Shown piece by piece: positions 18,414-27,401 of a stretch of 64,000 nucleotides of DNA (position 1 is its first letter; each line of letters opens with the position of its first letter). The stretch lies in contig JANYJE010000066.1 of the NCBI GenBank assembly GCA_025408405.1, forward strand, positions 1 through 64,000, read 5' to 3'. Below the pieces are notes generated by a model. The model did no database searches. It was given only the letters and a program-made list of their open reading frames with translations, and had not been told where the DNA came from. The stretch is from Nitrosomonadales bacterium. GTDB taxonomy: Bacteria; Pseudomonadota; Gammaproteobacteria; Burkholderiales; Gallionellaceae. A program made the position numbers and the translations under genes.

Positions 18414-18444
18414 AATAGCGTCCCGCTCGAACGGCAGGTTAGGT
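18414..18444 (-). other. attC: attC site split by the IS3 element (R' part)
   Basis: The R'' half is at 17131-17174 (GCATAACGTTCAAATTGAGG...GCGCAGGAAT) and the R' half here ends in GTTAGGT at 18438-18444. Deleting the IS and one AAT joins GCGCAGGAAT to AGCGTCCCGC and rebuilds an attC of about 72 bp. The cassette gene stop (TAA) is inside R'. Confidence 0.78.
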
Positions 18445-19059
18445 TTGTTGGTTGTTAACTTCACGAAGCCGCTCCTCTATTTCAATACCCAAACGGCGCT
18501 TGGCATAATTATCTATGCGGCCAATAAAGCCCGATAGAACTACACAGATTTTAATTTCGTCGATGCTTGACCAATAGCTTGTTTGTGCTTTTGTATGCGT
18601 AGATGGTGGGCGCAAGAAATCAAGCATGAATTTCGAAACATCGGCACCATTGCATACGATGATTTTTGGCTTATGGGTTTTGATTTGCTCTTCCAAAAAG
18701 CCTTTGCAATTACTTATAACAGCCGCAGCTTTTTTTCCTTTCGCGGATTCTGGCGGAAATGATTTGCTTGAGCATTTGACGATGTCGGTGTGTGCCGTGC
18801 CGAAGTCTTTGCCAAAGCTCCCAAACACAGATTCAGAAACCGATTGGAAGTCTTTAAAGTAACCGTGAATCGTCTCAAAGTCGTCGAAATATTTTTCAAG
18901 GTCTGAGGCTGTCCTACTGTCCACCCAATCTTGCTCAGCCGCAGGGTTAAGACCGACAATCCAAACAAGACTGTTTTTCTTCCCTTCTATAAACTCGACT
19001 GGTAGATAGTTGCGCTTAAAACGCAGCCCATATTCTTGGCATGTGGTGCAATCGTTCAT
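18439..19059 (-). CDS. Cassette gene: hypothetical protein, uracil-DNA-glycosylase-like fold candidate
   Basis: 206 aa. N-terminal CTTCQEYG could bind metal. LVWIVGLNPAAEQDW (about residue 31) resembles motif A of the uracil-DNA glycosylase superfamily (GxNP). KPKIIVCNGADVSKF (about 130) is like the central strand, and VVLSGFIGRIDNYAKRRLG (about 172) sits where the second catalytic motif would be, but lacks the usual HPS. So the fold is suggested and the enzyme activity is not. The gene has no clear ribosome site between attC and ATG. Confidence 0.6.
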   Translation of the reverse strand: MNDCTTCQEYGLRFKRNYLPVEFIEGKKNSLVWIVGLNPAAEQDWVDSRTASDLEKYFDDFETIHGYFKDFQSVSESVFGSFGKDFGTAHTDIVKCSSKSFPPESAKGKKAAAVISNCKGFLEEQIKTHKPKIIVCNGADVSKFMLDFLRPPSTHTKAQTSYWSSIDEIKICVVLSGFIGRIDNYAKRRLGIEIEERLREVNNQQT

Positions 19060-19753: not shown

Positions 19754-20407
19754 TCAATTGGCAACCTTGGTTGTTCGCTGGTTGGCAACATGTGTGTGAT
19801 CTCCGAGGTGCGTTTGCCCTTTCCATAGGATGAGGATACAGAAGCCAAAGGTCAGAGCACCTACTACGACATGCTTAATGCTGAGGGGGTAACTACACCC
19901 AAGAATGTCCAGCGTAAAGTAGGCCAACGCGAGCCAAATGCACAACGTAAAAAGATTGACGATTTGGTTTGTCTTTGAGACAGAGATATTGCCTGGCCCA
20001 GTAACATGTCTTTCAAAAAAATCATCGCCCGGAGGGCGACCCAAGATGGTTTTGTAGAGCGGCCCAGTGATTTTGTCTTCCAAAATATCAACGTGGTTTT
20101 CCCAATTCTCCTGCCATTGCTTGCTGCCACGATTCACTTGGAACCATGCAAAGGTGAACAGAAAACCAACGCACGCAACAATGAATGCTAGAAATTTTTT
20201 GTCGGCCAGATGCTCGGCACTCAGAATCACAAAGTAACCGGCGAACGCTGCGGCAATGAGCGTCCAGAAATAAGCCGCTCTCTTCCAATAGAGCTCGATC
20301 TCAAACTTCCTGATATCGAGAGCGTGCTCAAGCGCAGCCTCCAATTTCGGGATGTTCTCAGGCTCAATGCCAAAGTCGCTTTTATACTTCGCCTCGTCGA
20401 TTTTCAT
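19754..20407 (-). CDS. Cassette gene: RipA-like octameric membrane protein family (tentative)
   Basis: 217 aa. A soluble N-terminal helix (ENIPKLEAALEHALDIRKFEIELYWKRA) leads into two transmembrane segments (about 46-65 and 72-92). A conserved-looking stretch follows, NRGSKQWQENWENHVDILEDKITGPLYKT. Two more transmembrane segments are near 147-165 and 177-195. The arrangement and the NRGSKxWQENWE motif are what I recall from proteins annotated as RipA family octameric membrane proteins. Assignment is from memory, not a search. Function unknown. Confidence 0.7.
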   Translation of the reverse strand: MKIDEAKYKSDFGIEPENIPKLEAALEHALDIRKFEIELYWKRAAYFWTLIAAAFAGYFVILSAEHLADKKFLAFIVACVGFLFTFAWFQVNRGSKQWQENWENHVDILEDKITGPLYKTILGRPPGDDFFERHVTGPGNISVSKTNQIVNLFTLCIWLALAYFTLDILGCSYPLSIKHVVVGALTFGFCILILWKGQTHLGDHTHVANQRTTKVAN

Positions 20408-21788: not shown

Positions 21789-22079
21789 TTACGATTTCCT
21801 CCAATTGGCGCGATCTTCGATAGTCTCCTCGGGTGAAGATCCGCTTACGGAAGTGTTTAGCGTTATTCGCAAAAATTGCGACTCATTTAGCGATTTGGCC
21901 TTTTTAGAAAGCTGCGCACAATGGTTGGGCATAGCTTTCAACTTTGTTTCAGCACACGTGTAAATTCCGATCCATTTGCAATTCGGGCATTGATACCAAA
22001 ACCAATTTCCATGGTCATCAATTTCGCACCCTACTTCGAGATGACCGCACAACGGGCAAGTTCTTTTTACATACCCCAT
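21789..22079 (-). CDS. Cassette gene: zinc-ribbon hypothetical protein
   Basis: 96 aa. An N-terminal zinc ribbon with CPLCGH and, 20 residues on, CPNCKW (two CxxC knuckles) is clear. The rest is polar with KAMPNHCAQLSKKAK and no known domain. AGGAG seven bases before ATG is a strong ribosome site. It is the second cassette from the integrase. A nucleic-acid-binding or protein-interaction role is plausible, but nothing specific can be said. Confidence 0.72.
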   Translation of the reverse strand: MGYVKRTCPLCGHLEVGCEIDDHGNWFWYQCPNCKWIGIYTCAETKLKAMPNHCAQLSKKAKSLNESQFLRITLNTSVSGSSPEETIEDRANWRKS

Positions 22080-22092
22080 TTAATTCTCCTAT

Positions 22093-22160
22093 GCCTAACG
22101 TTCGAGTTGAGCACCGGCTCGAGCGCAGCGAGGGGCGTGTGCTCGAACGAGTGGTTGGAC
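22093..22160 (-). other. attC: attC site of the first cassette
   Basis: R'' GCCTAAC at 22093-22099 and R' GTTGGAC at 22154-22160. The inner arms GTTCGAG and CTCGAAC are exact complements. 68 bp, sequence different from the other sites of the array. Confidence 0.8.
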
Positions 22161-22180
22161 GTGAGGGATGGCGGCCAGTT

Positions 22181-22312
22181 TCAGCTGCATTTTATCCGTG
22201 CGAAAAACCAAAAATTCCGCCCTCCATTGAACAGACCAAAGCGTTGCCATCGACCGTGCGTATCAACGCTCGCGTTATACGCCGGTACGTGCAACGCTTT
22301 GCACCGTATCAT
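22181..22312 (-). CDS. Possible 43-aa ORF of the first integron cassette
   Basis: Not in the ORF track because of its size. ATG 22312 to TGA 22181 encodes 43 residues (starts MIRCKALHVPAYNASV, ends FARIKCS). The stop is 20 bp from the attC at 22093-22160. It could be a real micro-protein or the cassette could be non-coding. No ribosome site is convincing. Confidence 0.35.
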   Translation of the reverse strand: MIRCKALHVPAYNASVDTHGRWQRFGLFNGGRNFWFFARIKCS

Positions 22313-22385
22313 GCAGGGCAGCCCTTTATACAGCCCCGCTCCCTGTAATAAACTGTTCGGCTGCCCGCTCTAGCCGTCACTTGCG

Positions 22386-22392
22386 GCCAACG
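22386..22392 (-). other. attI: Candidate attI core of the integron
   Basis: On the minus strand this reads GTTGGCC, close to GTTRRRY, about 115 bp from the intI start and at the integrase-proximal edge of the first cassette, where attI should be. Only one mismatch-containing core is seen and attI sequences are poorly conserved, so this is a guess by position. Confidence 0.3.
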
Positions 22393-22505: not shown

Positions 22506-23210
22506 ATGGTTAATGCAAATGCACCTTCTGCCCCAACCCCGCCAAAATTGCTCGATCAAGTCCGCGACAAGATCAGGGTTAAACATTACAGCATCCGCAC
22601 AGAAACGCAATATCTTCAATGGATCAAACGGTTTATCTATTTTCATGGCAAGCAGCATCCGCGCGATCTGGGGGCTGCCGAGATTGAGGCCTTCCTGTCT
22701 CATCTGGCCACTGCGGGAAATGTGTCGGCATCTACCCAGAATCAGGCGCTTTCCGCGTTGCTGTTTCTTTATCGGGAGGTTCTGGGTATTAATTTGCCCT
22801 GGATGGAAACCATGGTGCGCGCAAAGAAGCCGCAGCGCCTGCCGGTGGTGCTGAATCGCACCGAAGTGGGGTTGGTGCTGGAGCGCATGGAAGGGACTTA
22901 CAGTTTGATGGCGCGCTTGCTGTATGGCACGGGCATGCGCTTGATGGAGTGCTGCCTTCTGCGCGTGAAGGATATCGATTTTGGCCAGCGCGAGATTCTG
23001 ATCCGCGATGGCAAGGGCGGCAAAGACAGGGTGACGATGTTGCCGGAAACGTTGATTCGGCCGTTGCAGGAGCATTTGACCAAGCGCCGCTGGCTTTATG
23101 ATGAAGACTTGGGCAAGGGCATGGCCGAGGTGTTTTTACCGGATGCGCTGGCGCGCAAGTATCCCAAGGCCGCTAGCGAGTGGGCGTGGCAGCCCGGTAG
23201 GTTGGGCTGA
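22506..23210 (+). pseudogene. intI: Integron integrase IntI, 3'-truncated
   Basis: Tyrosine recombinase that inserts and excises gene cassettes at attI/attC. AGGAG lies 8 bases before ATG. The N-terminal SAM-like domain (about residues 15-105), box I with the catalytic Arg (YGTGMRLMECCLLRVKDIDF, about 140) and the beta-hairpin Lys (RDGKGGKDRVTMLP, about 165) are present. The start of the IntI-specific insertion follows (FLPDALARKYPKAASEWAW). The true sequence then ends at about 23196 and the last four residues come from a repeat element. About 100 C-terminal residues with the HxxR and Tyr boxes are missing, so it should be inactive. It faces away from the cassettes, the normal orientation. 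Confidence 0.93.
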
Positions 23211-23322
23211 ATGAAATGAAGCCCAACGTTCCCGCACAATGTTGGGCTTCGCGACGCTCTGACGATTTCTCACGCGATTTATCGCGTAGAGAATCGCGTA
23301 ACTCTGTTGCAACCCAAGCTAC
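23197..23322. mobile_element. 126-bp inverted-repeat element (MITE-like) ending intI
   Basis: Ends are GTAGGTTGGGCTG and, reverse-complemented, GTAGCTTGGGTTG. Inside are a hairpin GTTGGGCT / AGCCCAAC (23201-23219), a second GTTGGGCTT copy near 23243, and CGCGATTTATCGCG (23273-23286). No coding capacity. I recall GTAGGTTGGG...AGCCCAAC repeats as dispersed in beta- and gammaproteobacterial genomes. No obvious target duplication, and intI does not resume after it. Confidence 0.75.
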
Positions 23323-27197: not shown

Positions 27198-27401
27198 GCG
27201 CGCCAATCGGAATAAGCGTGAACTGAATTTGCCCAGGCACAAACGCCCAGCCAATAAGCGCGGCCCGGTTGCCTGCCGGCTTGGCTTGGTGCACAATGCA
27301 CTTCCAGTTTCGTGGGGATTTAGCAGCCTCCCCGTCCAAGACGCGCAGCGTCCAAGGCATGCTCCAACAATGGATATTGTATTTATCCAAGCGGAGAACC
27401 C

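Follow-up and report, generated by a model that had tools for sequence, protein, structure and literature searches.

Integron cassettes that carry an attC site but no gene have been described with promoter activity in Treponema (PMC6557892) and Vibrionaceae (PMC11014356), where the promoter was either proposed or shown and where, in Treponema TMB4, the ORF-less cassette also occupies the first position of the array (PMC6557892). Activity in these systems was reported for one cassette at a time, and the terms sRNA, hairpin, and secondary structure did not occur in a text search of the Vibrionaceae paper (PMC11014356). Another small noncoding structured element carried on integron cassettes is sRNA-Xcc1 (RF02221; PMC2996969 and PMC12444791), which lies beside symE and is oriented against Pc (PMC12444791). 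Furthermore, the block imposed by an attC site can be relieved by a short ORF that runs through it (reviewed in PMC8876359). Gene-less promoter cassettes as such are already known. In contrast to the cassettes described one by one, we report here a single homologous family whose members share a promoter-like box and a covarying hairpin, distributed across many species and previously unnamed; limited literature searches, from which subscription journals were mostly missing, found no paper on this family of hairpin cassettes.

The window that we analyzed comprises 64,000 nucleotides of a Gallionellaceae genome, in which the cassette array reads along the minus strand, away from a plus-strand integron integrase gene (Table 1). 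DNA homology between the window and five relatives with integrases 79 to 85% identical (L004, L005, L006, L007, and L009) ended at 22389/22390, and homology with two others (L011 and L008) ended no more than 5 to 9 bases from this junction. Because the DNA is shared from intI to 22390 and then diverges abruptly at a GTT core, we assigned the boundaries of the first cassette and its attC site accordingly. The element has the architecture of an integron cassette, with an attI/attC crossover upstream and its own attC downstream. These results place the attI core exactly where the original prediction had put it, to the base, and confirm its observation that the interval up to the first attC contains no normal gene, only a 43-amino-acid ORF with a stop codon 20 bp from attC. 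No open reading frame of the cassette was conserved, and an NCBIfam profile search of the ORFs tested in it returned no family matches. The integrase of the window lacks its C-terminal part, open frames in relatives being mostly 320 to 345 amino acids long, and the array of the window may be frozen. A palindromic repeat, GGTTGGGCTGAATGAAATGAAGCCCAAC (23200 to 23227), lies directly behind the truncated integrase gene, and in Nitrotoga (L075/L133) a similar repeat lies behind a hairpin cassette copy that is itself truncated. Elsewhere in the window, we observed a cassette gene for an 8xMP membrane protein (19754 to 20407; PF24838, E = 7e-42), a gene with a weak match to the uracil-DNA glycosylase superfamily (18439 to 19059; PF03167, E = 6e-7), and a chrB-b RNA motif (27313 to 27362; RF03086, 42.7 bits) upstream of a gene resembling a chromate transporter.

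Table 1. Coordinates of the integron features around the first cassette of the window
Feature	Positions	Strand	Remarks
Integron integrase, cut off after residue 229	22506..23210	+	Match to profile TIGR02249 ends at position 215 of 315
attI core GTT (G 22391, TT 22390-22389)	22389..22391	-	Crossover between G 22391 and T 22390
First cassette, 292 bp, without a normal gene	22099..22390	-	From attI crossover to attC crossover; set by end of homology and attC core
Upstream hairpin GGGCAGCC...GGCTGCCC	22316..22366	-	Window subfamily only
Promoter-like block: TGTATA (22332-22327), then extended -10-like TGATACGGT (22311-22303)	22303..22332	-	Weak consensus match in window
43-aa ORF	22181..22312	-	Not conserved
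Conserved family core: long imperfect hairpin with bulged G and A at a distance of six pairs	22236..22301	-	Match to model R3, E = 1e-7
Short in-frame ORF through attC, 31 aa	22095..22190	-	Stop is the TAG of GTTAGGC
First attC, 68 bp, GTCCAAC...GTTAGGC	22093..22160	-	Core GTTAGGC at 22099-22093
Cassette 2 gene, product of 96 aa with CPxC...CPxC (zinc-ribbon-like on visual inspection)	21789..22079	-	First gene behind the element

The closest homologues of the first cassette were four copies in two genomes of another taxonomic family, with 87% identity over 100 to 111 bp; two of these copies are identical tandem repeats of one 297-bp cassette (L055). A covariance model built from these sequences (R1) found approximately 20 further members in the two taxonomic families concerned. 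A broader model (R2) extended the membership to other families of the order and, within the class, to nine additional genomes from other families. With stricter filters, R2 detected no members in 398 other genomes from across the phylum. As an independent test of membership, a model built solely from members unlike the window type (R3) still matched the window hairpin, with an E value of about 1e-7 in 102 kb. Named carriers of the exact core pattern were Gallionellaceae, Sideroxydans, Gallionella, Candidatus Nitrotoga, Sulfuricellaceae, Sulfuriferula, and a Methylotenera MAG; two copies (L124 and L133) are present in the cultured Candidatus Nitrotoga sp. BS. Overall, the family was detected in integrons of Gallionellaceae and other Gammaproteobacteria (in the GTDB sense). 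We found no matches in plasmids and phages by distant DNA search or in viral contigs by exact core patterns. As expected of a mobile element, homologues occur at other positions, in other arrays, and in other species, and they are second or later cassettes in five genomes (G320, G238, G153, G074, and G339). Several genomes hold more than one copy (G339, G1040, G995, and others). The homologue search in integrons that the original prediction had called for thus returned clear relatives in other arrays, and their presence in other genomes indicates that the first cassette is not a decayed remnant unique to one genome. In one of the contig stretches examined (L054, 1625 to 1793), the proteobacterial sRNA psRNA2 (RF02349, 124 bits) lies beside a transposase-like gene, approximately 1.3 kb from the hairpin cassette.

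Among the 18 copies with intI on the same contig stretch, 13 are first cassettes, a count that is an upper estimate because six of these first cassettes come from short stretches and the attC finder misses sites. The 13 copies lie 135 to 268 bp from the integrase start and read away from the integrase. Two further copies, in genomes of other families of the class, also lie beside intI. The family searches were not conditioned on the presence of intI.

Between the cassette start and attC, we distinguished three modules: a promoter-like block, a long hairpin, and a tail. An extended -10-like TGnTA occurs in 36 of the 38 distinct copies, located 5' of the hairpin at a distance of 7 to 11 nt, which is 9 or 10 nt in 32 copies. 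In the alignment of the largest subfamily, all 10 sequences have an invariant TTTACA approximately 17 nt upstream of TGnTA, and the intervening 16- to 17-nt spacer is variable; a fixed TTTACA with a variable spacer is the pattern that would be expected of a promoter. The block of the window aligns with the TTTACA-N17-TATTGA of this subfamily, which is preceded by TG, and takes the form of TGTATA, 18 nt, and TACGGT with TGA before it. A consensus promoter scan of the window cassette accepted no promoter, with TGTATA and TACGGT being poor matches to the -35 and -10 elements, and likeness to a -35 element is also poor in several other subfamilies. The upstream hairpin of the window subfamily appears in relatives as TTTGGCAACC...GGTTGCCAAA, with two pairs changed on both sides.

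In many members, the tail contains a stretch resembling a ribosome-binding site as well as a short ORF extending into or through attC. The ribosome-binding site of the corresponding 31-amino-acid ORF is weak in the window, and translation of this ORF through attC is possible. Similarly to ORF-11 and ORF-17 of attI1 and to known attC-spanning ORFs, it ends at the TAG of GTTRRRY, an arrangement that can link translation to the following cassette (PMC8876359); unlike ORF-11 and ORF-17, the predicted ORF lies within the cassette rather than in attI, and its peptide is not conserved. We did not detect protein selection on the attC-spanning ORF, for which the close relatives L067/L068 and L074/L077 differ, within each pair, mainly by amino acid changes, and its amino acid sequence is not conserved among members. 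In the window, AGGAGAATTAA precedes the start of the cassette 2 gene at 22079, approximately 14 bp beyond attC. Genes in the next cassette are co-oriented with the element and differ between genomes; as judged by eye, they include zinc ribbons, a HigB/HigA-like pair, a SnoaL-like protein, a TIR domain, and a DNA methyltransferase. The element is therefore not a control region dedicated to a single gene.

The original prediction mentioned neither the hairpin nor the homologous cassettes in other arrays nor the truncation of the integrase. The hairpin was recognized as a strong inverted repeat inside the first cassette, with a fold z-score of -3.9 relative to shuffled sequences, and across the family copies it spans about 65 nt with a mean folding energy of -37 kcal/mol. 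Its arms form 29 pairs, 18 of which have changes on both sides, so that pairing is kept while the sequence changes. Paired cells amounted to 88% in the hairpin, compared to 77% in shuffles and 27 to 39% when the partner was slid (27 to 34% for a shift of a single base), and the pairs covary beyond both the shuffled and the slid controls, as expected of a structured RNA. Nested within the 5' arm, we also observed an alternative hairpin (TGAGC/GCTCA and GTGCAA/TTGCAC; columns 39 to 57 of alignment A3, approximately 22304 to 22286 in the window), which was 81% paired with covariation above all shuffles. This is moderate support, as the nested hairpin fails in several members; it could compete with the long hairpin.

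These sequence comparisons establish a conserved family of gene-less cassettes with a promoter-like block, a hairpin, and a preference for the first position, from which we infer function. We tentatively favor, at somewhat less than an even chance, a reading of the first cassette as a member of a mobile family of gene-less promoter/leader cassettes. TGnTA with TTTACA or TGTATA approximately 17 bases upstream would represent a sigma-70 promoter of the extended -10 type, directed away from intI. Transcription would start inside the 5' arm of the hairpin, and array transcripts would then begin with a stable stem-loop acting as a 5' stabilizer or leader, after which a ribosome-binding site and a short ORF would allow ribosomes to cross the attC hairpin and reach the following cassette. 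The cassette could thereby serve as a portable substitute for, or booster of, the array promoter Pc and would be most useful in first position. The homologues, the TGnTA and TTTACA motifs, the covariation, the R3 match, the first position, the differing co-oriented next genes, and the precedents of promoter activity in ORF-less cassettes and of relief of the attC block by a short ORF are consistent with this promoter/leader function; the weak -35 and -10 elements of the window, the poor -35 elements of several subfamilies, the partly inflated position count, the missing signal of protein selection on the attC-spanning ORF and its weak ribosome-binding site in the window, and the lack of a G-U bias described below count against it.

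The main rival is that the hairpin works as DNA, extruded or folded as a single strand and bound by the integrase or another protein as attC is, to regulate attI use, integrase expression, or cassette mobility. We consider this unlikely, although several properties of the hairpin point toward it. The arms are near-perfect Watson-Crick duplexes with almost no tolerance of G-T: G-U makes up about 2% of pairs, with 19 on the presumed RNA strand and 24 on the other in 39 sequences, and an apparent strand bias among 18 sequences (10 versus 2) was gone in this larger set. A structured RNA would be expected to have G-U more commonly on the transcribed strand. With G-U equally rare on both strands, the form in which the hairpin acts may be DNA and not RNA; this rarity counts against a pure RNA reading or is a sign that replication errors that correct the palindrome dominate. 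Extrahelical bases are part of attC geometry, and folds of 28 of the 38 copies contain two bulges on one strand, most often G and A, approximately six pairs apart and adjoining a three-pair apex (AAC/GTT or AAG/CTT). The hairpin thus resembles attC sites in that it is long and imperfectly palindromic, has its two extrahelical bases on the same strand, and keeps its pairing despite sequence change; it also lies beside attI. In L069 (1501 to 1713) and L078 (1463 to 1605), the inner hairpin appears to be inverted relative to the other copies, with no change in the orientation of the outer arms or the promoter-like block, which would also fit a DNA site. However, a pure DNA site would not need TGnTA at a fixed distance. 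A second attC was rejected as the identity of the hairpin: the RYYYAAC/GTTRRRY outer boxes are absent at its base, the AAC/GTT trio faces the loop whereas that of attC faces the hairpin base, and the cassette has a separate attC.

That the cassette encodes a stand-alone, trans-acting small RNA, for which sRNA-Xcc1 of Xanthomonas integrons is a precedent, appears less likely still. The promoter-like box directly 5' of the conserved hairpin and the lack of a partner gene fit such an RNA. In contrast to sRNA-Xcc1, the window element stands alone and reads with the array. Rfam searches at gathering and relaxed thresholds found nothing credible on the cassette or its homologues, however, and the covariance model of RF02221, a family named in the Rfam 15 paper, gave no match even at relaxed thresholds. 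Furthermore, no U-run lies immediately 3' of the hairpin, no loop sequence common to the subfamilies is available for target pairing, and the G-U signature is absent.

Two other explanations are improbable. In one, the cassette would combine a promoter with a folded-DNA site whose attC-like bulges bind the integrase, so that the cassette in the first slot would set both array expression and attI recombination. In the other, of comparably low probability, the cassette is selfish and without host function, its palindrome preserved by template switching and its spread due to the integrase alone. Template switching during replication can mimic compensatory change, and the multiple copies per genome and the inverted inner hairpins of some copies would suit a selfish element. 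Nonetheless, the bulges and TGnTA stay in place while the arms change completely, template switching would erase the bulges, and the first-position preference also speaks against this explanation; the conserved bulges argue against replication correction alone. A 43-amino-acid micro-protein as the product of the cassette can be dismissed. The ORF exists, and its first 21 codons resemble those of the nearest relatives, but a 1-base indel shifts the frame between these relatives and the window. Frames from the aligned ATG or GTG range from 6 to 92 codons across 18 homologues, with a stop within 13 codons in 10; the start codon shares bases with the TG of the conserved TGnTA; and no ribosome-binding site is evident. 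Of the micro-protein, RNA, and promoter options in the original prediction, the first therefore falls, and the promoter-like block, covarying hairpin, and first-position preference favor a noncoding element. Related cassettes contain no conserved ORF, an outcome that the original prediction had named as refuting and that counts against the peptide, whereas conservation does extend to the cassette.

Array promoters are usually viewed as part of the integron platform, and cassettes without a gene have been regarded as curiosities or as degenerate genes. The approximately 40 distinct sequences and the covariance models now provide a comparative set for the function of ORF-less cassettes, in a setting of chromosomal integrons of iron- and nitrite-oxidizing bacteria far from the clinic. 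From its usual first position, the element could control all genes behind it. If the promoter/leader reading is true, the conserved, mobile family of first-position promoter/hairpin cassettes would make expression control itself a trait that moves between arrays in cassette form.
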